Position numbers and translations under genes: made by a program. From Chloroflexi bacterium ADurb.Bin180 (GTDB taxonomy: Bacteria > Chloroflexota > Anaerolineae > UBA2200), in assembly GCA_002070215.1 (NCBI GenBank), contig MWCV01000005.1, positions 1 to 64,000 on the forward strand: DNA of 64,000 nt. The letters are read 5' to 3'. This document shows, piece after piece, positions 6,993-22,700 of this stretch. The notes under the pieces were generated by a model that was given only the letters and a program-made list of their open reading frames with translations, searched no databases and had not been told where the DNA came from. The stretch's first letter is position 1; every line of letters begins with the position of its first letter.

Positions 6993-7812
6993 GGAAATAG
7001 TCCTCCAGTGCGTCCCTCCACGGCCGAAAAACGATGCCCAGTTGAGTGGCCCCGTTAAAGTTGCGCAGCTCTGACCGGGCCGGCACTTTGGCGGCGCGGG
7101 CAAAGCCCTGCGTCGGCTGCACGCGGTTGGGGTCCAGGCCCGCCAGCTCGAGGATGGCTCTGGCCCACTCGAAGCGTGAGCAAACCCCGCTATTGGTGAA
7201 ATGGTAGATGCCAAACAGCCCGCTCGGAATGAGCCGGGCGATAGCTTCAGCCAGGTCCGGCGCGTAGGTAGGCGAACCCACCTCATCGGTGACGAACTGC
7301 AGTCGTTCCCGCTCGTCTGCCAGGCGCAGCACGCTCTTGACAAAGTTCTTGCCCTGCCGGCTGTAAAGCCAAGCGGTGCGCACAATGTAGCAACGCTGGA
7401 GGAGCGTGCTGGCAATCTGCTCGCCGGCGAGCTTGGACCTGGCGTAGGTGCTCTGTGGATTGGGCGGGTCCCACTCCCAGTACGGCTCGTTCTTGCATCC
7501 ATCAAAGACATAGTCGGTGCTGACGTGGACCATAGCCGCTCCGCACTCCTGGCAGGCGACGGCGACGTTCTGGGTGCCAAGTGCATTGACGCGGTACGCC
7601 GAGACAGGGTCGGACTCGCACGCATCAACATTGGTGAAAGCCGCCGCGTGAACGACGACCTCCGGTCGAAAGCTGGTGATGGCCTCACGAGTCTGGCGGT
7701 GATTGCCGATGTCGTACTGTGGCAGGTCCAGCAGCAGCAGCTCGTGGCCGGTCAGCCGCCCTTGAAGGGCGAGGCCAAGCTGCCCCGCGCTCCCGGTGAT
7801 AGCGACCTTCAT
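6982..7812 (-). CDS. rmlD: dTDP-4-dehydrorhamnose reductase
   Basis: The 276-residue protein is an extended short-chain dehydrogenase. It has the N-terminal NAD(P) site ITGSAGQLG, the STDYVFDG segment and the YARSKLAGE catalytic Tyr-Lys pair spaced as in RmlD. RmlD reduces dTDP-4-keto-L-rhamnose to dTDP-L-rhamnose, the last step of rhamnose donor synthesis. No rmlA, rmlB or rmlC is in this window. Its start directly abuts the stop of the upstream phosphodiesterase-fold gene at 7813, and its end overlaps the GT2 gene. Length and motif order are normal. Confidence 0.92.
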   Translation of the reverse strand: MKVAITGSAGQLGLALQGRLTGHELLLLDLPQYDIGNHRQTREAITSFRPEVVVHAAAFTNVDACESDPVSAYRVNALGTQNVAVACQECGAAMVHVSTDYVFDGCKNEPYWEWDPPNPQSTYARSKLAGEQIASTLLQRCYIVRTAWLYSRQGKNFVKSVLRLADERERLQFVTDEVGSPTYAPDLAEAIARLIPSGLFGIYHFTNSGVCSRFEWARAILELAGLDPNRVQPTQGFARAAKVPARSELRNFNGATQLGIVFRPWRDALEDYFRGD

Positions 7813-9564
7813 CTAAGCCTCCTGAAGCGAGTTTGACGACGAGCGACCTCGCGGTTGCCTGCGCCGCGCCAGGCACTTGCTGACCGCCCAGTGCAACAGA
7901 ACAGCCGGGAGCGGCAGCAACACCCCGACGAAGGCAAACCACATTGCTTGCACCAGCAGAGAGTAGTGCAGGAACGCCGCAGTCAGGTTCGGAATGTACC
8001 AGGTGAAGCGTTCTCCGTTCCAGACAAAACACAAGGCGACTCCGCCGGCGATCAGAACTAGGGTGATCAGTGCCAGCGCCAGCACCTGTTTCGCTACCTG
8101 GAAGAGGTCCTTCTCGCGCCGCAGGCCCCAGATGATGAGCAGCGCACCAACGCCGAGCGCCACTGCTGCATTGGCCAAAGTCGGAGCCAGTTGCGCGGCC
8201 AGCTCGCCGGGGGCAGTCTGACTAAAGCTGTAGCTTCCACCCGGCCACAGGTAGAGCAGATGGTAGAGCTCTACGCTGACCACAGCGCAGAGCACCAGCC
8301 ACAGGACACGCAGACTGCGCTTGAGCCAGAAGACGAGTGCCGGAACGCCAAGAACCGCCAGAAGAATCGGCAGACGCGCCTGCCGCTCTGCGTTGAGCCG
8401 GGCGGCACGGCCGCGCACGATCTCAAGGTCCGCCTGCTGCACCGACAGACCGGCCAGCTCGGCCGCACTGGTCAGATTGCCCACGAGCAGCGAACTCTGC
8501 GCAGTGAGCAGGTCGCCTTGGGCGCTCTTACTGATGGCGCCTCGGCCGATGCTGGCGAGGTAGGTGTTGCCAATTCGCAGCCGCTGAGCGGCCAGAGCGA
8601 GCATTTTGGTTGCTGCATCATGGTCAGTCATGCGCAGCATCGTGGTGGAAATCTGGCCCAGGGCCTGGGCAGGAATGGGCGCGCCCAGGATTGCCGAGAT
8701 CAGGGGCGCCACATCCATCGCACCGGTGGCACGGTACGCTCCGGGCGTCACCCCTCGGCCTACCATCACGAAGGGGGCCAGGCGAGGGGGCACTTCGGCC
8801 CCGCCGAAGGTGCCGCGCTCCAGCATGCCGTGGCTGGACAGCACAAGCAAGACGCTTTTGCCCAGATCCATCGTCGAAGCGATTCGGGACAGGTATCCGT
8901 CGCAGCGCAGGGCGGCGGCCGCATACTGTTCGCTCGTCGGGCCAAACTGGGCTCCGACCGACTCGAGCTGACTGAACTGAATCAGGAGGAGATTAGGCTG
9001 GAACTCGCGGAGAAAGACACAGGCCTTTTCCGCAACCTCCCCGTCGCCGTCGTCGGCGGTAGACTCTACATAAGCATGCACATAGAGGTCGGAAGGCGGG
9101 ATGAGCCTTCCCCACGCGCTCAGACCCACTACGCCGGTAGTCAGCGAATCGCGGCTGGCGGCCGCAAAGATGGTATCGAGCCTGATTGGTTGGATCAACC
9201 CGGTAGGACGGTCAACCAGCGGCGCATCGTTGGTCTCGGGCCCTGAACCGGTCACAATGGTCGTCCAGGCGGTTTGGGTCGTCGAGGGCGGAGGGTACAC
9301 GAGCAGCGCTGCTGCACCTGAGCGGCGTAGCGAGCTCAGTGTGGGCATCTGCTGGGAGGTATCGTAGCGCAGGCCGTCGATCACCACCAGCACCACTTGA
9401 GCCGCCAAGGGGTTGGTGGCCTCCCGGGTAGGAGGTGGAGAGCCCTTGACTGGAGAGCGGTAGGCGTACATGGAGAGGACCAGTGTATCAGCCAGGCGGT
9501 TGGCACCAACGGCGGCCAACAGCAATGCCACGATCATCAGCACCAGGAGGGCGGTCTTGCTCAT
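7813..9564 (-). CDS. membrane-anchored alkaline-phosphatase/NPP-fold protein with degraded metal sites
   Basis: The 583-residue protein starts MSKTALLVLMIVALLLAAVG, a signal anchor. The fold is that of the nucleotide pyrophosphatase/phosphodiesterase superfamily: VVLVVIDGLRYD supplies the first Asp and PSTTQTAWTTIVTG the nucleophile Thr region. The later metal motifs are altered. The usual DSxGHxxGP reads ESVGAQFGP, SDHGM reads SSHGM, and GxHGG reads GTFGG. The sugar-phosphate metal sites therefore look largely lost. The last 200 residues hold about five membrane helices. A GTG at 9591 overlapping the upstream stop (TAGTG) is an alternative start. It may bind rather than cleave a phospho-substrate; function is unknown. 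Confidence 0.72.
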   Translation of the reverse strand: MSKTALLVLMIVALLLAAVGANRLADTLVLSMYAYRSPVKGSPPPTREATNPLAAQVVLVVIDGLRYDTSQQMPTLSSLRRSGAAALLVYPPPSTTQTAWTTIVTGSGPETNDAPLVDRPTGLIQPIRLDTIFAAASRDSLTTGVVGLSAWGRLIPPSDLYVHAYVESTADDGDGEVAEKACVFLREFQPNLLLIQFSQLESVGAQFGPTSEQYAAAALRCDGYLSRIASTMDLGKSVLLVLSSHGMLERGTFGGAEVPPRLAPFVMVGRGVTPGAYRATGAMDVAPLISAILGAPIPAQALGQISTTMLRMTDHDAATKMLALAAQRLRIGNTYLASIGRGAISKSAQGDLLTAQSSLLVGNLTSAAELAGLSVQQADLEIVRGRAARLNAERQARLPILLAVLGVPALVFWLKRSLRVLWLVLCAVVSVELYHLLYLWPGGSYSFSQTAPGELAAQLAPTLANAAVALGVGALLIIWGLRREKDLFQVAKQVLALALITLVLIAGGVALCFVWNGERFTWYIPNLTAAFLHYSLLVQAMWFAFVGVLLPLPAVLLHWAVSKCLARRRQPRGRSSSNSLQEA

Positions 9565-9590
9565 TTCGAGCCCGGAGTGAAACCCAGCCA

Positions 9591-10508
9591 CTAGACGCGA
9601 AGGTTGAGCGCGGAAGGCAGGATGCGGAAGGTCGCAGGAGCTTCACCAACAACCTCGCCTTCGGCCTGGATGAACATTCGTTGTCTGGACTCGACCGAGA
9701 TCTCGGCAGCCTGAAAGTGCTGCACCTTGGGATGTGACAGGTGAGTACCCTTGTAGACCCGAGACACGTTGGCCAGAAACTCGAGGTTGTTCAGATCCTT
9801 CAGAATCACCACGTCAAAGATGCCATCGTCTGGCACGGCGGGGGGACAAATCCACATCCCACCACCAAAGTACTGGCCATTGCAAACCACCACCGAGTTG
9901 TAGGTGCCGCTCTGGCTCTGGCCGTCAAACTTGAGCACTACATCCTTGTTTCGATAGGCAAACAGCGTGAACACCAGGCTCGACAGGTAAGGGATCGTTC
10001 CGCCGATGGCCTTGCTGCTGCGGTTCACGCGGTCACACACCTCGCCATCAAAGCCCAGCCCGGCAACGTTGACAAAGTACCGCCGATGGGGATTGCCAGC
10101 CCGCTGACAGTGGAGCTCACCGATGTCCAGGCGTCGAACGTGGCCCCCGGCCACCCCCCGAGCGGCCTGGACAGGATCTCTTGGCACGCCCAGGATGCGG
10201 ACTAGGTCACAGCCCGTTCCGCCAGTCACAATGCTGAGCGACACCGCTGGGTCGATCGTGCCATCGACGACCAGGCCGTTGAGTACCTCATGGACGGTGC
10301 CGTCGCCCCCCACAGCGACAAAGTGCCGAAAGCCCTGGTCAAGGGCACGACGCGCGATCTCAGCGGCATGCCAGGGACGTTCGGTCAACTCGGCGCTGAA
10401 CTCGAGCCCGGATTCGCGAAGAACCTGCTGGAGCTCGGGCCACAGGCGTCTCACTCGCCCCCCGGAGCCGACCGGGTTGACGATGACTTTGGACTCTTGG
10501 CCAGCCAT
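9591..10508 (-). CDS. diacylglycerol kinase-family lipid kinase
   Basis: The 305-residue product starts MAGQESKVIVNPVGSGGRVR. IVNPxxGxG is the family N-terminal motif, and FVAVGGDGTVHEVLNG is the GGDGT nucleotide-binding motif of the DAGK/YegS/sphingosine-kinase catalytic domain. TGGTGCDLVRILG matches the usual TGxxND region with Cys in place of Asn. DIGELHCQR and FVNVAGLGFDG lead into the beta-rich C-terminal domain. It probably phosphorylates diacylglycerol or another membrane lipid at the cytoplasmic face. The frame is open 150 codons further upstream, but that part overlaps the papain-fold gene and shows no family signal, so ATG 10508 is chosen. Confidence 0.87.
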   Translation of the reverse strand: MAGQESKVIVNPVGSGGRVRRLWPELQQVLRESGLEFSAELTERPWHAAEIARRALDQGFRHFVAVGGDGTVHEVLNGLVVDGTIDPAVSLSIVTGGTGCDLVRILGVPRDPVQAARGVAGGHVRRLDIGELHCQRAGNPHRRYFVNVAGLGFDGEVCDRVNRSSKAIGGTIPYLSSLVFTLFAYRNKDVVLKFDGQSQSGTYNSVVVCNGQYFGGGMWICPPAVPDDGIFDVVILKDLNNLEFLANVSRVYKGTHLSHPKVQHFQAAEISVESRQRMFIQAEGEVVGEAPATFRILPSALNLRV

Positions 10509-10533: not shown

Positions 10534-13500
10534 CTAGCGGAGCTCGCCGCCTTGAGCGAGCGATGCCGCCTCGATTGAACAATGCACGACAAACGAGTAG
10601 GTGCCTGCCGCGGGTCCATCAACGGCCAGGAAGTAGGTTCCCGCAGGCAGTCGTTCCACTCTGGTGGCAAGCCCTCTGCCGGCCATCCCCAGGCATTGCG
10701 CCGGGTCTCCGTGTTGGAAGAGGAAGAGCCGCAGATCCGCGTCAGCGCCCAGGCTAAGATCCAGAGTAGTAGAGCTGGCTTCGAGGGTGAGGCGATACAG
10801 GACCTCGGGCCCAACCATGCCTGAGGCGCAGGTCCCGTAGCTGGAAAAGACGGATGGTTGCCCGACAGTCGAGCCAGAATAGCGCGTGCCGCAGGCAATC
10901 GGGGTTGCGCTGAGTGCCGGCGTTGCGGTAGCAGTCGGGCTGGCTGTGGGGGTCCGCGTTGCGGTAGCCGTGGCTGACGGCATCGGCCCACGGTACCCGC
11001 CCTGCAAAAGCGGCAGATAGAGCCTCTTCAGGCCAACGGGCAGAGTGGCCGTCGGGGTCTGCGTTGCCGTGCGGGTCGGGCTCAACGTGGGGGTAGCAGT
11101 GGCGGTCGCCGAAGCAACAGTGGTTAGAGTAGGCGTCGGCGAAGGAGTGTTCGTATGAACTGACGTCGGCGTCTCAGTAGCCAATGTCGCTGTCGCCGTC
11201 GCGGTAGGCGTGGCAGTGAGCGTTGGCGCCGTGGTCTGGGTTGCAGTGGCCGTCGGCGTCGCGGTAGACGTCGCTGTCGGTGACGATGTCTCCGTCGCTA
11301 CCAGGGTCTGCGTTGCCGTTGGCGTGGCGCTCTGAGTGGAGGTAGGGGTCGGCGTAGCGGTGCTCGTCGCCGTCGCACTCGGTGTGGGCGAAAGCGTGGG
11401 CGTTACTGTGGGCGGTGCGAGCGAAACGCACTGGAGCGTGAGCGTGAACGCGCCGCTTTCGAGGCCGTCGACCACCAGGTAGTAGGCTCCCGGGGCCAGT
11501 TCCGCAGCGATGTCGGCCCCGATGGACAGGCAGTTCTCAAGATTCGTCTCAGGCAGCAGGAACAGGGCCAGGTCAGCGGTGGTACTCAGGCGCGCGGTGA
11601 CGCTGACCGGCTGTTGCACCTCCAGGCGGTAAGCCACTTCCGGTCCGGTGAAGCCGTCACCGCACACGCCATAGGACGCCACCCGGTTCTGATAGCCAGC
11701 GGTATTGGCCGAGACACTATCGCCACAGGCGATGGGCAGTGGATTGTCAAAGCTCCCTGGCCTGGATTGGCCAGTGATCGAGACAGTCCCGTTCTGTACT
11801 CCGCCCAGAATGGAGCTGCCGCCGTAAGTGACCTCGGTCTTGAAGGGCAACTGAATGCCGAAAGTGAGTGGCGTTGACCCACCAGCCGTGCCCCACAGGG
11901 CCTTGAAACGGATCGTCGCCAGGGTGAATGTGCCGCTCGGGCGTGGTTCCTCGGGGTCATAGATGCCCGCCGCGAAATGAATCCGGCTGGGGCTGGTATC
12001 CGTATAGACGCGGTTACGCAGAACCTGACTGAGCAGGCCGCTGGACTGGATTCGATTGGTGGGGTTACCCAGCGAGTCCACCACCTGCAGAAAAGTCGGG
12101 TCGAAGTAGACGTGAACTTCGGCGCCGTCGACCAGGTCCGGTCCCGCCGCAATCTGAATGTTCACGGTAAAGATGTCGCCTCTGGCCACCGTGGGGGTCA
12201 GGGGGTTAAGGGTGACGTAGGCCAGGTCAGCCAGTTGGTCCGTCGTGCGCAGCCGGATTCCCACGTCGGCATTGGCCGCTCCAGCGTCATCCCACAACCA
12301 GGGGGCGCCCGACGGGTTGATGAAGGTCCGCTGGAGTTCGGGTGCGCCGTGGCTGTCCACGGCGATGGGATAGTTGTAGGCATAGTTAGTCAGCTTGACG
12401 ACGACAAAGACGTCGTTTGCCTCCTGGAGAGAAAGAGCCGGATGGATGGCGACGGAGTGATAGCCGGCCTCATTGAAGGCCAGGTTCTCACGGGAGTAGA
12501 GCAGGCCGCTCGGCGCAATGCCGTCAAAGCTGTCGTAGATGTACAGGTCGACATCCGTGGTCGTATCGGTGGTCCAGAACTCGATGTTCGTAGCCCAGCT
12601 GCTCGAAGTAGGTGTGAACCGGACCAAGCCCCAGGCCGTGGTGGTGCCATAACCCCAGGATTCGTTCCAGCCGGCCTCATCGTAATAGAGCAGACCGCCC
12701 TGGTCATCGTGTGGCTGCCACGATTGCACATAGGACGAGTACATGCCGATGCTGGCCGAGCCGTAGGCGATGGTGAAGTAGCCACCCTCAGTGCCATAGC
12801 CGCAGGGTCCGCCCCAGTAGCTGCCCCAGCTATTGCGGACAATCCACCCACCGGTGCCGCCCTCATGAACCAGGGCATCATCCCATCCCACGATGACCAC
12901 GTTGCTGTTCGGTGCCTCCGACCCGGGATGATAGAGAGTGTAAGAGCCGTCGTATGACGCAAACTCGGCATCCCAGGCGTCGCCATTGCCGGTATAGAGA
13001 GTGGTGGCGATTGGCCCATAGTTCTGCAGGTACAGCTTGAGCAGGTTGGTATCCGGAACGGTATTGCCGTTCAGCAGGCTCCAGTCAAGCAGAGTCTGCC
13101 GTGCCGGACAGGCGGTGTTGCAGGCGGTGTCCATATCCGTGTAGGGGTCGCAGCTTTCATCAACAGTGCCCCTCTGAGTGAACAGGTTGGCGGCCATGAT
13201 CGGGTCGCCGCCCAGACAGCTACCAGACCCCATATAGTTGCCATTGACGGCTTCCCAATTGCATTCCTTGACGTTGTTTTCGGACAGGTCGTGAGGCCCA
13301 GCGCCGTCGATCAAGAGTCGTGACTCAAAGCTGGCCACAGAGGCAAAGGCGTAGGAGGAGGCGCAAGCCTGCTGATCCCTGATCAGCGGCACCTTCCCGT
13401 ATTCGCGCCAATCCCAGCGGCTCTGCAGGGCATTCGCCTGGCCAGAAGGCATCTTGCCACTGGGTCTCAGATAGCTCAGGTCGAGCGAGGGTGGACGGAA

Positions 13501-13695
13501 TCCCTTTCTGGGAGAGGTAGCGGCGCTGACTGAAGCCACTGTAGGCGCTACCTGTATCGCAAGTTCCGCGGGGCCCGCATCGTCGGGCAACTGCACTGTC
13601 TCAGGAGACCGGGCCGTTACAGGGAAGAGCACAACAACGACCAGTAGAATACAAGAAAGCAAAGCCAGGGTCAGCGCACGTGTGTGATGTGACAC
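10534..13695 (-). CDS. exported papain-fold (C1A) protein lacking catalytic Cys and His, with PPC repeats
   Basis: The GTG at 13695 follows AGAAAGGACTTGGC. The 1,053-residue product has a signal peptide (ALTLALLSCILLVVVVLF) and a papain fold at about 90-330. The active-site motif reads DQQACASSYAFAS, where papains have QGxCGSCWAFS, so Cys25 is Ser. The His motif reads NSNVVIVGWDD instead of xxHAVxxVGY, so His159 is Ser. The Asn motif VRNSWGSYWG is intact. A cohesin-like beta domain follows at about 500-640, then two PPC-like domains (each with PIACG and LAPGAYYLVVDG or LPAGTYFLAVDG). These are separated by Thr/Pro-rich linkers and a LKRLYLPLL motif. It is probably a surface binding protein rather than a protease. 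Confidence 0.82.
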   Translation of the reverse strand: MSHHTRALTLALLSCILLVVVVLFPVTARSPETVQLPDDAGPAELAIQVAPTVASVSAATSPRKGFRPPSLDLSYLRPSGKMPSGQANALQSRWDWREYGKVPLIRDQQACASSYAFASVASFESRLLIDGAGPHDLSENNVKECNWEAVNGNYMGSGSCLGGDPIMAANLFTQRGTVDESCDPYTDMDTACNTACPARQTLLDWSLLNGNTVPDTNLLKLYLQNYGPIATTLYTGNGDAWDAEFASYDGSYTLYHPGSEAPNSNVVIVGWDDALVHEGGTGGWIVRNSWGSYWGGPCGYGTEGGYFTIAYGSASIGMYSSYVQSWQPHDDQGGLLYYDEAGWNESWGYGTTTAWGLVRFTPTSSSWATNIEFWTTDTTTDVDLYIYDSFDGIAPSGLLYSRENLAFNEAGYHSVAIHPALSLQEANDVFVVVKLTNYAYNYPIAVDSHGAPELQRTFINPSGAPWLWDDAGAANADVGIRLRTTDQLADLAYVTLNPLTPTVARGDIFTVNIQIAAGPDLVDGAEVHVYFDPTFLQVVDSLGNPTNRIQSSGLLSQVLRNRVYTDTSPSRIHFAAGIYDPEEPRPSGTFTLATIRFKALWGTAGGSTPLTFGIQLPFKTEVTYGGSSILGGVQNGTVSITGQSRPGSFDNPLPIACGDSVSANTAGYQNRVASYGVCGDGFTGPEVAYRLEVQQPVSVTARLSTTADLALFLLPETNLENCLSIGADIAAELAPGAYYLVVDGLESGAFTLTLQCVSLAPPTVTPTLSPTPSATATSTATPTPTSTQSATPTATQTLVATETSSPTATSTATPTATATQTTAPTLTATPTATATATLATETPTSVHTNTPSPTPTLTTVASATATATPTLSPTRTATQTPTATLPVGLKRLYLPLLQGGYRGPMPSATATATRTPTASPTATATPALSATPIACGTRYSGSTVGQPSVFSSYGTCASGMVGPEVLYRLTLEASSTTLDLSLGADADLRLFLFQHGDPAQCLGMAGRGLATRVERLPAGTYFLAVDGPAAGTYSFVVHCSIEAASLAQGGELR
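11040..11410 (-). repeat. low-complexity Thr/Pro/Ala-coding linker
   Basis: This stretch encodes about 120 residues made almost only of Thr, Pro, Ala and Ser in irregular TPTxTAT units, joining the first PPC domain to the LKRLYLPLL motif. On the plus strand it reads as GT/GC-rich near-repeats. A second, shorter linker of the same type lies at about 10895-10985. Such linkers are usual in exported Chloroflexota proteins and may be glycosylated; replication slippage probably varies their length. Confidence 0.8.
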
Positions 13696-17100: not shown

Positions 17101-19028
17101 ACTTTCCACCCACCGGATTCTCTTGCCCAGCGGGCCGTGAACTGGGCCGAGGACAGTGCGTCCGAGTCCGGCCAGCGATACTGCAGGGTGATGGTCGAGG
17201 TAGCGACGTCGCCAACGACAAGTGGCGCCTCGCTGCGCAGGGTCAGAGACACGGCCTGGTTCGCGCGCAGGTTGGCGAACCACCCGGCAATCTGGGAGCG
17301 CCACTGCGTGCTGCCGGCGGCAACCAGAGAGAGGAAGGCCTGTTCATCGCTCTTATCCAAAGCGGACTGGAGAGCTGCTCCGAGATCCTCCAAATCCTCG
17401 CCGTCGGAGGCCAGAGTCGTGAGTACCAGGCCGGCCAGGCGTCCAGCGTCACTCAGTCGCGCCGGGTCGATGAGCGCCGCGTTGTCGGACGGCACGTGAT
17501 AGGGGAGAGGAGGTGGCGACTGAAAGTCCCAGATGTAGAGTGTTGCCGGCACCCGGACTGCCGCGAATGGCACATGATCGCTGCCTCCGCCCGAGGTCTC
17601 CATGGTTTGGATGCCCAGGTGAGCCGCACTCAGCAGGGACTGGTCGGCTACCAGACCGTGAGGTTCGATGAGCAGCGTTGGTTTTCCCGCACCGACCATA
17701 TCCAGTTGCAGCATGCCAACCGTGGAGGTAAGCGGCAAGCGCGGATGTTCTACATAATACTTGCTTCCGTTGAGCCCGATCTCTTCCGCATCCCAGGCAG
17801 CGAAGAGCACGGTGCGCCTGGGCACATAGCCCTGCTCCTGCCAGACACGGGCCAGCTCCAACAGGACAGCCACACCAGACGCATCGTCATTCGCGCCGCC
17901 CCACAGGGTGCCATCCGGATCAGCGCCAAGATGATCATAGTGCGCGCCGACGATTACCGTCTGGTAGAGCCCATCGGGATCAGAGCCCGGGAGGACCGCC
18001 AAGACATTGCGGCCCACCGCCTGCGAATCGTACTCCAGGGGAAGCTGAAGGCGCATGCGCCAGGGCAGCGCGCGCGGCAGGTGCTCCAGCGGCAGGTCGG
18101 CCAGGGCGAGGCCACTGTTCTGGAGCAGAGCGCCCATGACCGCGTCGCCCACGACCAGCGTCGGTATGCCGGCGGGCAGGATGGCCTCTTCGCGTGCCGT
18201 GCGGCGCATCCATAGGTCATAGTCCGGCCGATAGACCAGCAGCGCACGGGCACCGTGCTCGAGGGCCTGACGTTGGAGATTGTCAATGGGAGCCTGCGAA
18301 CGGCAGAGAACGATGCTTCCCTCGGCTTCAAGCAGCCGGTACTCCGCTGCGCTTCCGTCGCCCATCCACAGCACGGGCGCTTCGGCCTGACCTCCGTCGG
18401 CATAGCCGCCAGGCCAGGGCGCATAGTCAAAGCGCAGCTTGAAGGCCCTGACGAGCTCGCCACCCGCACCCAGGAGGTCCAGCACCGGTTCACCAGTCAG
18501 CTCGGCGTACGGTACGGGGAATTCCTGAAAGTAGGTGCCACCGTCCCCGGCAGGAAGAAGCCCATACCGCGCCAAGCCGCTGGCAATCCATTCTGCCGCC
18601 AGTTTCGCACCGGGTGAGCCAGTCGCACGGCCAGCGTACCGTGCTCCGGCCAGCTCGGCGATGTCCGCCCAGGCCCGGTCGGCGCGAAACTCGTTCGCGA
18701 GGGATTCCCAATCTGCTGCTTTGACCAGCGGCCCGGCGGTGCGCTCGAGAGGGGTGAGCACCAGTGGACTGGCCGTCGCCGAAGGAGCAGGTGTTGCCAC
18801 GGCCAGGGGTGGGCGGGCAGTCGGTTGGGTGACGGGCGGTGCCACCGGTCCGGCGACTTGCTGGAGCCTAGACCACCACACCAATAGCCCGGAAGCCCAC
18901 AGCACAAGCGCGAGCGCAGCGACGACGAGCCAACGAGGACCGGGCAGTCGAGAGCGCGTGCTGGAAGACCGTCCGTCCATCGACTGGTCGGTTCCGGGCC
19001 CGTGTTCAGTCTCGCGTGTCGCCATCAT
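14148..19028 (-). CDS. giant exported M28 - MA - MA - M28 metallopeptidase-fold protein
   Basis: The 1,626-residue product has a cytoplasmic tail, one membrane anchor near 33-52 (WLVVAALALVLWASGLLVWW) and a Pro-rich linker. A PA-type insert (about 220-300) leads into an intact M28 domain (about 335-545): GAHYDHLG, GGANDDASG, AWDAEEIG, LQLDMVG and GGSDHVPF. A first MA-like region (about 650-780) lacks HExxH. A second (about 980-1150) has IIAHELTHLLLF and a downstream HEG. The C-terminal M28 domain (about 1240-1626, with its own PA-like part) is degraded: GAQLDGVG, SANHDASG, AWNAGEQG, GDDASFHS. ATG 19028 overlaps the previous stop (ATGA) and follows GAGAGGTGA. It is probably an extracytoplasmic aminopeptidase with regulatory dead copies. 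Confidence 0.82.
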   Translation of the reverse strand: MMATRETEHGPGTDQSMDGRSSSTRSRLPGPRWLVVAALALVLWASGLLVWWSRLQQVAGPVAPPVTQPTARPPLAVATPAPSATASPLVLTPLERTAGPLVKAADWESLANEFRADRAWADIAELAGARYAGRATGSPGAKLAAEWIASGLARYGLLPAGDGGTYFQEFPVPYAELTGEPVLDLLGAGGELVRAFKLRFDYAPWPGGYADGGQAEAPVLWMGDGSAAEYRLLEAEGSIVLCRSQAPIDNLQRQALEHGARALLVYRPDYDLWMRRTAREEAILPAGIPTLVVGDAVMGALLQNSGLALADLPLEHLPRALPWRMRLQLPLEYDSQAVGRNVLAVLPGSDPDGLYQTVIVGAHYDHLGADPDGTLWGGANDDASGVAVLLELARVWQEQGYVPRRTVLFAAWDAEEIGLNGSKYYVEHPRLPLTSTVGMLQLDMVGAGKPTLLIEPHGLVADQSLLSAAHLGIQTMETSGGGSDHVPFAAVRVPATLYIWDFQSPPPLPYHVPSDNAALIDPARLSDAGRLAGLVLTTLASDGEDLEDLGAALQSALDKSDEQAFLSLVAAGSTQWRSQIAGWFANLRANQAVSLTLRSEAPLVVGDVATSTITLQYRWPDSDALSSAQFTARWARESGGWKVAGPAFATASTGTVVVTSLGVTNADALAAVADSLRQRVQQELGPVLPEPLKISLYGNAAVLRALERPPSLPADRYAWVDGERLVLGQTSALTATLLNLALTRTGWSPEQASWLSIAQAARWSSDALALEQLPDRYVPVLLQAERDSALWPSGEMPLAAAVPSSRQGVWDAQAWAMLQYLASNGLLTRANADLGGWHQTVLQPWLEAQQGISLTLATRTSAVMALDESAFLATVNSTDVTLLQEERHWFADLRQHPVAAFSLEGQLLSLDGDIARARLQMRYQLAADGAQPTSVIWIARFVNRQGVWLYSDLDFTATASGHFVLKHRASVSDQEAQSLLVLAEKSYDSVATDLGIEPPLPVQLKLYDDPAVFRSSIYLSMGQARGWNEPGESIKLTNLATAEPGPIIAHELTHLLLFQMGVDHAGVHEGTSQLEAALAFPRWKYTRLRRWRQMVYDTVRSGRPVGLASLANWSDWTNESELVYNIGWDSIDYLRRRFGREAFLAWLRCQASESDWSRCFSSTLHISYAAFDQQWRQAVLEGHIPPGLVAIARSFDGAFSKNHVTKLAQADWSGRETATQGNRAAVDYVAAAFAAASLTPLGEASSLAQPFTVNVSRLAAAPTLSYSAPGEVAGSNQAVTLAHLVDFGEVIGGAAGGGTASAGLVYAPSIPSGVSFGGRVLLVDAGTDLQQLARQARSQGAVALLVKTRLSASDMATRSAVTQQPDPGAIPVLQLTEQAAQALLKAAGQPTAQAGQPSAAYALPISVTLDLSLDTLANTQTANVVGLLPGSDPSVANEFIVIGAQLDGVGSPPGGPPYLSANHDASGVAVLLEITRLWHDSGYRPRRSVVFAAWNAGEQGQLGSRHWLQSGAVKPEQIRAVLHLDGVGQGRGYYLDVAGDDSADAILLASLENAARQVEGRLNMLKYQAHGDDASFHSRGIPTVALSWEKADYANTPQDTPDLIDEAKLQATGRLVALTLMTLADE

Positions 19029-20209
19029 TGCTGGTCACCTCTCGCTCGGTGACTCCTCCAGCAGGCCAAGCCGGAGAAACTGGTATCGGGGAACAGGGTA
19101 ACCGGCTTGCCGCCGACGGGAAGGGTTACCAGGGACAGGTCGTTACGACTCGGACCAGGGACGCTGAACGCGATCCACTTGCCATCGGGGCTCACCGCGG
19201 GGAACATGGCATGATTGATGCCCTTCTCCAAGGGCTTCCACTTCAGAGCAGAGTCGGCTTCGGCGCGACGGACATAGAGCACACCGGGCAACTGGCTCGA
19301 GCTCTGGCTTACCAGAGCCAGCCATTGGCCAGATGTGCCCTCCTCTGGCAGCCAAGCCAAGTACGTCAGCGCCGCCTGCCAGTCGCCCTGTGGGCCGTCA
19401 ACCGAGTACTCCTCGCTTCCATCCGTGGCACTCAGCACATGCACGCGTCGGTCGATCATGCCGTACGCCGCAATATGCTGACCATCAGGAGACCAGCAGG
19501 CCACCGTTGTCTGTTCGTCGCGGGTGACAATGGAGTTATCCGCCAGATCGAGGAGGCGTGCGGTAGGCCACCACCGCCCGGCGGAGCGGGTCTGAAAGAG
19601 CAGCGCTTTGCCGTTTGGCGACCAGGATAGATTTGTGTCGTCGCCGGGACCCGCTGCGACGCGTGTTGGCGCGTGCCCATCCAGAGTGGCGATGTACAGC
19701 CCTGTCTCGTCGGCCGTGAACTTGCCATCGGCATTGCTGTCCTCCACTGCGGCAAAAGCGATGCGATCACCGCTCGGTGACCATGCCGGCGCAACCGTGA
19801 GCACGCGAGCGATGGCTCCGCTCACCGTAATCGCCTCGCGCCGGCCCTCGGGAAGGACACAGACCGCGCCTAGCATGCCCACCTCATCGGCACCTCGCTC
19901 AGGGTCAGTGACGCGCAGGAAAGCCACGGCAGCAGATGTGTTGCCCTCGCTCGCTCCAGTCTGACAGGCGGGTAAGACATCCCCGGCCACCGAGCCCGGC
20001 AGGGGGCGGTCATTCTCGCCGAGCGGCCCGCAGGTGTAGAGGCGATAGGTGCCATCCCGGTTCGACACATAGACCAGGCCGTAGCCGCTCGTTGCCGGAG
20101 CAACCGCCACCGTGCGGCTGTAGCGCCAGAGTCGGTAGGTGGCGAAACCCAGGGAGACTGCCGCCACAAGGACTCCTGCCCAGAGTATGCGTTGAATCCG
20201 CTCGCTCAT
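19025..20209 (-). CDS. membrane-anchored TolB-like beta-propeller protein
   Basis: The 394-residue protein has an N-terminal anchor (ILWAGVLVAAVSLGFATY). It then has repeated PD40/TolB-type blades: APAWSPSGDRIAFAA, LSWSPNGKALLFQT, ACWSPDGQHIAAYG and PAVSPDGKWIAFSV, about 60-70 residues apart. GLVYVSNRDGTYRLY is a further blade. An EDSNADGKFTADETG loop may bind calcium. Such propellers bind proteins or peptides and often precede peptidase domains (as in DPP/S9 enzymes). Here the gene lies between the permease-M28 fusion (31 bp downstream of its stop) and the giant peptidase (ATGA overlap). I infer an extracytoplasmic partner or sensor for those proteins. Confidence 0.8.
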   Translation of the reverse strand: MSERIQRILWAGVLVAAVSLGFATYRLWRYSRTVAVAPATSGYGLVYVSNRDGTYRLYTCGPLGENDRPLPGSVAGDVLPACQTGASEGNTSAAVAFLRVTDPERGADEVGMLGAVCVLPEGRREAITVSGAIARVLTVAPAWSPSGDRIAFAAVEDSNADGKFTADETGLYIATLDGHAPTRVAAGPGDDTNLSWSPNGKALLFQTRSAGRWWPTARLLDLADNSIVTRDEQTTVACWSPDGQHIAAYGMIDRRVHVLSATDGSEEYSVDGPQGDWQAALTYLAWLPEEGTSGQWLALVSQSSSQLPGVLYVRRAEADSALKWKPLEKGINHAMFPAVSPDGKWIAFSVPGPSRNDLSLVTLPVGGKPVTLFPDTSFSGLACWRSHRARGDQQ

Positions 20210-20240: not shown

Positions 20241-22700
20241 TCAATACTGGTACTCGCGGCTGAGGGTGATCAGCATCAAATTGAGCGTATGGCCGGCCTG
20301 GCCCAACAGCGTGGGATCCAGAGCCTCTACGACGTCGTCAACGGCCGGCATCCGTGCTCCCCCCGATTCAAGCTTGATCGCCGGCGTTCCAAAGGCCAGC
20401 TCATAGGGATGCCAGAGCATCCTTGTCGTGCCAGCCTGGGCCCCAGCAGACTCGGCAGAGCGCTGGAAGAGATCGACCAGACTGGCGTCGCCTTCGGCCA
20501 GAAGCGTTCCGCTGCCGCCACCCAGGCTGCCCAGGTTCACTACTGCCGCTGTCTCCAGGATGGAGTAGCGGGCATACTCGTCGAGATAGACCTGAGCCCC
20601 GGAGTACTGCCACTCGGCTCCGGCCCAGGCGGCGAACATCATCGTCCGACGCGGCTGGAAACCCTGAGCACGCCAGAGGCGCAGGATCTCCAGCACGGTG
20701 CCTGCCGGCGCAAGGCCAGCACTGGCCCGCTGCAGTAGATGACCATCAGCAGTACGACCTTGCCCGTCCAGGCTCATCGACACGATGACCACCTGCTTGT
20801 TGAGCTGCGCATCGGTGCCGCGCAAGATGCCGACCACCGAGGCAGCTTGAACGACCACCGGCTCGGACAAAGTGATCTTGATGCTGGCCGTGAGCCCCAG
20901 GTCAGTCAATTCCCAGCGGCGCGGTGAGTCGCACAGCGCCTGAGCCCTGGCTGCCAGGGCCTCGAAACTGAGCCCGCCAGAAGACAGGAGAGCATTGGCA
21001 GCGTCCCTCCGCAGGCGGACGACCGGCAACGTCGGCCGAACCGAGTAGTCGCCGTCCGACGAGGCATACTGCAGGCGGGAGTCAATGTCATCGTCCACCA
21101 GAATTACTGCCACAGCCCCGCGCAAGAGCGATTCCACCACCATGTCCTTGGGGACGGATGAAGCCTCAAAGGACACCACTCTGTGGCGAAGGTCGAGACC
21201 GCGAAAATCAGCGGAAGTGAGAGACCGGCCGCATACTGTCAACCAGGCGAGCTGGCCGGACACGTCTCCCGCTCCACCGTGTCCGGTGATATCCAGCCCA
21301 AAATCGTCGCGATAGGTCAAGGTGCGCAGTGTCTTGCCGTCCGCACTGTGGACCTCGAAAGAGGGCTCGCCGAGGGGTTGCACCAGAGTGGTGGTAAAAG
21401 GCAAAACATAATCGAGGCCGGTCCTTAGCGGTTCAAGACCGTACTCGGCAAACTGCGCAGCGACGTATTCTGCGGCAGACCTGGCTCCCGCTGAGCCAGG
21501 GGCACGACCCTGCAATTCAGGCGCAGCCAGAGCATCGGCCACTACCAGGGCACCCGCGGTGTCAAAGCGCCGAGCCAGTCCGGCATAGGAGGGAGCGGGT
21601 CCCACGTGAGTAACGATATAGGCCGTCGCCAGGGTGACGGCCAGGATCACCAGCGCCATGCGCTTGCTGAGCAGGAACGAAGTCTTGACCCCGCGTTGCC
21701 GGATGAGCCGGCTGAGGCCCTCGCCGAGCAGGTTGAAACCAAGCACGGCCAGGAAAAACGCGGCCGCCGGGTAAAAGACCATCCAGATCTTGCTGCGCGC
21801 AAACTGCCGGGCCCCGGCCATCATCGCGCCCCACTCGGGCACGTCGGGGATGTTGGCCACAGCGGTATCGCCGACCTGGACCCAGGTGCCGCCGCCAACA
21901 AAGATGCCGATGAAGCCGAGCTCTCCCAGAATCATCAGCACGGCACCCATTTCGAGCACTGCGATGACCACGAGCGAGGGGAGCACGTTGGGCAAGATGT
22001 GGCGAACCGCGATCTCGAGATCGCTCAGGCCAATGACCCGCGCACCCTCGATGAAAGGCTTGCGCCTCACCAACATAAACTCGCTGCGAATGTACTGGGC
22101 AATCTCACCCCAACCGACCAGGCACAGCCCCGCGATGAACACGCCGATTCCTCGCTCGACCCCAAGGGCGAGGATCAGGATCATTCCGGCCAGGAGGCCA
22201 GGGAGGGCCGTGGTCCATTCCACCAGACCCATCACCAGCCGGTCGAGCAGGCCTCCCTCGTTCCAGCCGGCCAGCATGCCCAGCGATGCACCGAGAATGA
22301 TACGAGCCATGGCAATGAACAGGCAGGCGACAAGGGTGTTTCTGGTGCCGTACAGCAGCATGCTGAGGATGTCGCGTCCCCATTCGTCCGTGCCAAGGGG
22401 CAGGCCCGGCATTGGAGGAAACGGAGGGACGATGAATTGCCCATCGATGATCATCGAGCTGCGCTGCCCGGCGAGGTAAGGATCCTCCGGTGCCAACAGC
22501 GGCCCGAAGAGAACCAGCACAAAGAGCAGCAAGACGATGATGCCGCCGACGGCCAGCGGGGTGTTGATCTCGAGTCTGGGACGGCGCGGCCTAGCCCTGA
22601 CGGGCGGCGGCTCGGCAGGGGCCTTCAACTGAGGCGAGTCGGACTCGAGCCAGGTCAGGTCGGGTTCAGCTCCGAGCAAGCGCTTGAGCCGGTCTAGCAT
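20241..22700 (-). CDS. DppC-like ABC permease fused to a degraded extracytoplasmic M28 domain
   Basis: The 819-residue product is one open frame. Residues 1-345 are a complete DppC/OppC permease: N-terminal helix at 50-70, LGTDEWGRDILSMLLYGTR, the EAA loop FIEGARVIGLSDLEIAVRHI for the ATPase contact, and the closing WGAMMAGA and FNLLGEGL. A seventh helix (about 348-366) leads to a 450-residue outside part with PA-like and M28-like folds. The M28 landmarks LAAPELQGRAPGS, PRRTMMFAAWAGAEWQYSG and the final strands are visible. The metal motifs are lost: SMSLDGQG replaces GAHYD, RASAGLAPAG replaces GANDDASG and LWHPYELAF replaces SDHVPF. ATG 22700 follows AGGGGTGAGCC. Confidence 0.85.
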   Translation of the reverse strand: MLDRLKRLLGAEPDLTWLESDSPQLKAPAEPPPVRARPRRPRLEINTPLAVGGIIVLLLFVLVLFGPLLAPEDPYLAGQRSSMIIDGQFIVPPFPPMPGLPLGTDEWGRDILSMLLYGTRNTLVACLFIAMARIILGASLGMLAGWNEGGLLDRLVMGLVEWTTALPGLLAGMILILALGVERGIGVFIAGLCLVGWGEIAQYIRSEFMLVRRKPFIEGARVIGLSDLEIAVRHILPNVLPSLVVIAVLEMGAVLMILGELGFIGIFVGGGTWVQVGDTAVANIPDVPEWGAMMAGARQFARSKIWMVFYPAAAFFLAVLGFNLLGEGLSRLIRQRGVKTSFLLSKRMALVILAVTLATAYIVTHVGPAPSYAGLARRFDTAGALVVADALAAPELQGRAPGSAGARSAAEYVAAQFAEYGLEPLRTGLDYVLPFTTTLVQPLGEPSFEVHSADGKTLRTLTYRDDFGLDITGHGGAGDVSGQLAWLTVCGRSLTSADFRGLDLRHRVVSFEASSVPKDMVVESLLRGAVAVILVDDDIDSRLQYASSDGDYSVRPTLPVVRLRRDAANALLSSGGLSFEALAARAQALCDSPRRWELTDLGLTASIKITLSEPVVVQAASVVGILRGTDAQLNKQVVIVSMSLDGQGRTADGHLLQRASAGLAPAGTVLEILRLWRAQGFQPRRTMMFAAWAGAEWQYSGAQVYLDEYARYSILETAAVVNLGSLGGGSGTLLAEGDASLVDLFQRSAESAGAQAGTTRMLWHPYELAFGTPAIKLESGGARMPAVDDVVEALDPTLLGQAGHTLNLMLITLSREYQY

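Follow-up and report, generated by a model that had tools for sequence, protein, structure and literature searches.

A DppC-type permease joined to a degenerate M28 peptidase domain in Chloroflexota: a candidate ABC importer with a tethered receptor

In type I ABC importers, substrate delivery and activation of the ATPase both depend on a Venus-flytrap receptor, either a protein of its own or a domain joined to the importer; OpuF, OpuA and GlnPQ are importers with a fused substrate-binding domain. An M28-type fold serves as a receptor or partner without catalysis in nicastrin, which screens substrates for gamma-secretase, and in the transferrin receptor. The M28 relatives transferrin receptor and GCPII are dimers. 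In EgtUBC, the receptor is tethered C-terminally past the last transmembrane helix and faces outward (PMC9732360). The Dpp translocator of Escherichia coli is inactive without the binding protein DppA, which is touched by a scoop of DppB located between TM1 and helix 3, and a scoop-less DppB keeps about a quarter of the ATPase activity (PMC12136057). Fused receptors in ABC importers and dead M28 receptors in animals are known separately; among open-licence papers, we found no report of their combination in a DppC-M28 fusion.

Such a fusion is encoded in the window, the whole stretch of 64,000 nucleotides analysed here. It shares with DppBC and OppBC (E. coli DppABCDF, 8z1v series) the BPD_transp_1 permease pair and the EAA coupling loops, but its DppC has a seventh helix and an ectodomain, the partner DppB is without the scoop, no gene for a substrate-binding protein (SBP) or an ATPase lies alongside, and the parts often form one single chain. 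Like the receptor of EgtUBC-type importers, the fused domain follows the last transmembrane helix and, by sequence and model, would lie outside. However, the receptors of EgtUBC, OpuF, OpuA and GlnPQ are Venus-flytrap SBPs, whereas here an M28 fold sits on a Dpp permease. The animal pseudo-M28 proteins have a membrane-anchored, non-catalytic M28-type fold in common with the fusion, but neither the transferrin receptor nor nicastrin is part of a transporter and the fused domain is nearer to the bacterial enzymes PaAP and Aneurinibacillus AMP (2ek8). With these it shares the fold and the PA insert (TM-score by target length 0.61-0.67); both are secreted, active and have the full metal set, in contrast to the window fusion.

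The fusion protein and its relatives

The original prediction had read one uninterrupted frame joining a DppC-type permease, an extra helix and an M28-like domain, and Pfam, hydropathy, AlphaFold2 and Foldseek agreed with this order. The strand, which it had not given, is minus (Table 1). The frame starts with ATG and has AGGGGTG upstream. BPD_transp_1 was matched at residues 138-336 (9.5e-16), and E. coli DppC was the closest solved structure to the permease part; OppC_N (2.1e-4) and PA (0.14) stayed below the Pfam cut-offs. The EAA loop was intact as predicted, and in 73 fusions G224 and P237 were invariant and E218, A220, H234 and N238 were conserved in at least 90%. The protein does not end at six transmembrane helices and continues with the seventh helix and a domain of 449 amino acids. 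A KR-rich cytoplasmic stretch (RLIRQRGVKTSFLLSKR) precedes this helix and, following the positive-inside rule, would place the M28-like domain outside the cell. The proposed topology, a seventh helix followed by an outward-facing domain, is supported by both model and sequence.

Table 1. Features of the fusion gene and its neighbours in the window
Feature	Position	Strand	Basis
Partner DppB-type permease, 314 aa	22797..23741	-	Pfam, sequence comparison
Fusion ORF, 819 aa: DppC-type permease, TM7 and predicted pseudo-M28	20241..22700	-	ORF, Pfam, model
DppC-type permease domain, residues 45-340	21681..22568	-	Pfam BPD_transp_1; DppC PDB match 8z1v 1.2e-28
EAA coupling loop, residues 218-238 (EGARVIGL...HILPN)	21987..22049	-	sequence
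Extra (seventh) transmembrane helix, residues 346-365	21606..21665	-	hydropathy and AlphaFold2
Predicted extracytoplasmic M28-like (pseudo-aminopeptidase) domain with PA-like insert, residues 371-819	20244..21590	-	Pfam M28, Foldseek
Degenerate GAHYD motif (SMSLDG)	20763..20780	-	alignment
Degenerate GANDDASG motif (RASAGLAPAG)	20700..20729	-	alignment
Companion TolB/PD40-type beta-propeller with N-terminal TM	19025..20209	-	Pfam, locus comparison
Companion membrane-anchored peptidase M28-MA-M28, 1626 aa	14148..19028	-	Pfam

A profile search with Peptidase_M28 (PF04389), which the original prediction had proposed, gave a match at residues 666-757 (3e-5) with 24.3 bits against a curated cut-off of 21.3. 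The protein was modelled with AlphaFold2 from a deep alignment of 73 sequences (pLDDT 88.3, pTM 0.84); this model was used instead of one from nine sequences, in which the permease was poorly modelled (pLDDT 64). The best PDB matches of the C-terminal part in Foldseek were the M28 aminopeptidases PaAP and 2ek8, followed by the transferrin receptor and GCPII. A chance resemblance to M28 was ruled out by Pfam, the 73-row model and Foldseek.

The closest relatives of the genome encode the same fusion of 819-821 aa with 58-70% identity. When 84,980 species genomes were scanned, 79 loci were kept, all from Chloroflexota, mostly from Anaerolineae but also from Thermoflexia, Caldilineae, Ardenticatenia and Chloroflexia. 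A phylum search gave matches in at least 6 of 400 genomes at an E-value of 1e-20, a lower bound as eight candidates were scored per genome. In total, 87 distinct fusions were extracted, with all 79 named loci in this phylum. Among the carriers are a genus mate, the cultured isolate Thermanaerothrix daxensis, whose fusion is a single chain (L111, 1175 aa), and a MAG with a closed chromosome. Conservation in several genera, which the original prediction had named as support, was found and extends across families and classes. An assembly join or frameshift, raised as a possible artefact, was ruled out by single frames in independent assemblies, including the isolate and the closed chromosome. Nor are the two parts always separate genes in homologues, since independent genomes carry the same fusion. 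The family is much larger than the original prediction had foreseen, consists mostly of single chains and has one member with an intact-looking active site.

Single chains of the order DppB-DppC-TM-M28 made up 50 of the 87 fusions, most of them 1160-1370 aa long; of the others, some have DppB encoded by its own gene, like the window fusion, and the rest are cut off at a contig end. Five single chains of type II (1440-1466 aa overall) had an N-terminal LolD/MacB-like ATPase domain that is largely degenerate: none of the five has kept LSGGQ, and three have also lost Walker A. These ATPase-headed fusions (L035, L036, L041, L042 and L045) are all-in-one NBD-DppB-DppC-M28 polypeptides. Pfam identified HlyD-type and MacB/FtsX-type genes upstream of L036, and neighbours of matching size were present at L041, L042 and L045.

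Several loci deviated from the common pattern. At L159 (1862-10109, plus strand) in genome G069, one DppB is followed by three DppC-M28 fusion genes in tandem. At L098 (3275-5806, plus strand), the fusion is broken at the M28 part into two ORFs of 488 and 340 aa, possibly by a frameshift in the metagenome assembly. The fusion L163 is divergent and its M28-like tail was recognisable by eye, and L162, initially matched as a fusion, was not used because the called long ORF carries the M28 part only.

The former active site and its history

The six catalytic and metal positions of M28 enzymes, H-D-E-E-D-H, read S-A-A-E-G-none in the window fusion. By sequence and model, its M28 domain is without the residues for binding two zinc ions and for catalysis. 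The claim that the metal motifs are gone was borne out for the window, but some metal positions survive in sister genera, where they read HDGED-. In 17 of 22 type I fusions the catalytic Glu was replaced by Gly. All six positions were kept in one of the 87 fusions, L161 (HDEEDH; 7166-9670, also in G069), and L102, truncated after HDEE, is compatible with an intact site.

The conservation of the pocket was scored in clades that were defined by the permease tree and not by the M28 motif. In clade II-a, the former catalytic positions now read Q-D-E-G-R, each in 27-34 of 34 rows (74th-100th percentile), and in clade II-b they read Y-D-G-E-S in 8 of 8. In both clades, the old active site has become fixed with other residues. 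In the five-member family of the window, the pocket positions were not specially conserved (36th-69th percentile).

In the permease tree, from which the long-branch fusion L051 was left out, 81 fusion permeases were separated from 27 ordinary or other DppC proteins by one branch with an SH-aLRT of 90. The M28 tree, with a narrow outgroup of only the domains of the neighbouring 1626-aa protein, placed 85 fused domains in one clade with a support of 97. Both trees fit one main fusion lineage. Since the fusions with an intact or compatible site, L161 and L102, branch near the base of the M28 tree, the simplest history would be that an active M28 enzyme was fused once and that catalysis was lost afterwards. 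Alternatively, given the narrow outgroup, this pair could be a second, separate fusion event.

Between the window and G001, dN/dS was 0.07 for the permease and 0.24 for the M28 half, and between the sister pair G002 and G005 it was 0.06 and 0.10, all approximate figures as dS was above 1. Both halves are under purifying selection, which is weaker on the M28 half. This half evolves faster in the window's own family than in the sister genera.

DppB partners, ATPases and neighbouring genes

In the DppB of the window, the gap from TM1 to GNLG is 31 aa and a PGDP/GLDxP scoop motif is absent; about 10 codons into the ORF, a further ATG occurs in frame. The GLDxP motif was present in 19 of 20 ordinary DppB proteins of related genomes, but in none of the 72 fusion partners (Fisher 9e-19). 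Likewise, the gap from TM1 to GDLG was 25-39 aa in the 46 measurable fusion partners and 44-59 aa in ordinary DppB. The DppB partners of the fusions are therefore without the scoop segment for SBP docking. This is not proof of lost docking, since the scoop-less E. coli DppB is partly active.

Two loci had a scoop-less DppB and no M28 domain. At L056 (8798-11041, plus strand, G032), DppC is joined to a PQQ/BamB-type beta-propeller, a different ectodomain in the same position, and L060 (6681-8691, plus strand, G013) encodes a DppB-DppC pair without a fused ectodomain. Because of these loci, the loss of the scoop may predate the fusion or be independent of it.

An SBP gene was not found among the neighbours of the window cluster. 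An SBP_bac_5-like gene was present in 3 of 85 fusion loci, some of which have short flanks; the fusion at L122 directly adjoins an SBP gene. The ATPase-coupling loops were intact in fusions and DppB partners, with the EAA loop detected by regular expression in 72/72 DppB and 78/82 DppC proteins and the remaining four being near-matches. No DppD/F ATPase gene adjoins the window fusion. Oligo_HPY ATPases were kept in all 18 fusion genomes searched, and the window's genome (G000) has exactly two, the sole DppD/DppF pair found, beside an SBP on contig C2. Since the scoop is lost, SBP genes are rare and the coupling loops are intact, we infer that the fusion complex is driven by ATP and imports without the ordinary binding protein.

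The window cluster has the order DppB, fusion, PD40 propeller and M28-MA-M28 peptidase; the first two intergenic gaps measure 96 and 31 bp, and the last two genes overlap by 4 bp. In the 1626-aa peptidase, two M28 domains flank a Peptidase_MA-like domain (HELTH). The first M28 site is intact (HDEEDH) in the window and in 8/8 genomes examined; the second is degraded, reading QHGEDN in the window and varying in relatives. Of 26 type I loci, 11 had a catalytic-type M28 gene downstream (a twelfth match, another fusion copy, was set aside); none of the 37 type II fusions had a companion M28 peptidase next to it. For type I, the M28 peptidase neighbours suggest peptide scavenging.

Possible functions of the fusion

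The reading we favour, and to which we give an even chance, is an ATP-driven Dpp-type importer in which the tethered pseudo-peptidase replaces the binding protein. By sequence and model, the DppC chain runs on via the seventh helix into the extracytoplasmic M28 and PA domain that is without a usable metal site. Peptides, or a ligand derived from them, may be captured by this domain in the cleft of the old active site, next to the opening of the DppB/DppC pore. The domain would so take over the role of the soluble DppA, for which DppB has no docking segment. Surface peptidases encoded next door would supply short peptides, and an ATPase from another locus the energy, the simplest candidate being the DppD/DppF pair on contig C2. 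In the window's family, ligand binding may be lost or changed, because the pocket is unconserved and the M28 half evolves faster. No M28 fold is known to open and close like a Venus-flytrap SBP.

The M28-MA-M28 peptidase allows another arrangement, which we consider unlikely: the dead M28 domain could pair with the active peptidase over the channel as a scaffold, so that products are channelled in and no substrate is held. This would fit the conservation of the companion beside type I fusions, its intact first site and the dimeric TfR1 and GCPII among the fold matches. However, the type II fusions have no such companion, and the conserved old active-site positions in II-a and II-b are expected of a pocket, not of a pure dimer surface. 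It is also rather improbable that the ectodomain, acting as a lid or sensor, controls the permease or signals the presence of peptides but delivers no substrate itself. Inactive M28-like ectodomains do act as non-catalytic partners in eukaryotes, as in nicastrin, and the five type II proteins with a degenerate ATPase domain, several beside HlyD and MacB/FtsX genes, are consistent with such a role. Against it, no conserved signalling partner was seen beside the fusions and the coupling loops are intact.

The HlyD-type and MacB/FtsX-type genes that precede some single-chain fusions could also point to complexes that move something outward and need no SBP. An exporter is nevertheless very unlikely, as the permease, a Dpp-type BPD_transp_1 protein, has the type I importer fold, its EAA loops are intact and the HlyD/FtsX association is confined to one small clade. 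About equally unlikely is the idea that a once-active fused peptidase is drifting toward loss. The many different ways in which active-site positions were lost, the one full-site fusion and the relaxed pocket in the window's genus would agree with a relic, but 87 distinct open fusion frames over several classes, a dN/dS of the M28 half well under 1 and the replaced pocket residues fixed in II-a and II-b argue against it.

If the importer with a tethered pseudo-peptidase is correct, a fold other than the Venus-flytrap can do the job of the importer receptor, and there would be a hint at how peptides are taken up in little-cultured Chloroflexota. The fusions could represent a class of ABC importers, mostly one-chain, with the SBP replaced by a fused pseudo-peptidase and with other ectodomains, such as the PQQ-type propeller, fused in other lineages; we put this a little below an even chance. 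For structural work, the single-chain fusions are a natural joined TMD pair, and the retained intact-site form provides a before-and-after series for the evolution of an enzyme into a receptor.

The window cluster also adjoins a gene for a papain-family (C1) peptidase with lectin-like, cohesin-like and PPC matches (10534-13695, minus strand). A papain-family peptidase gene is adjacent in the genus mate too (L027), and it may be part of the peptide-scavenging region as well.
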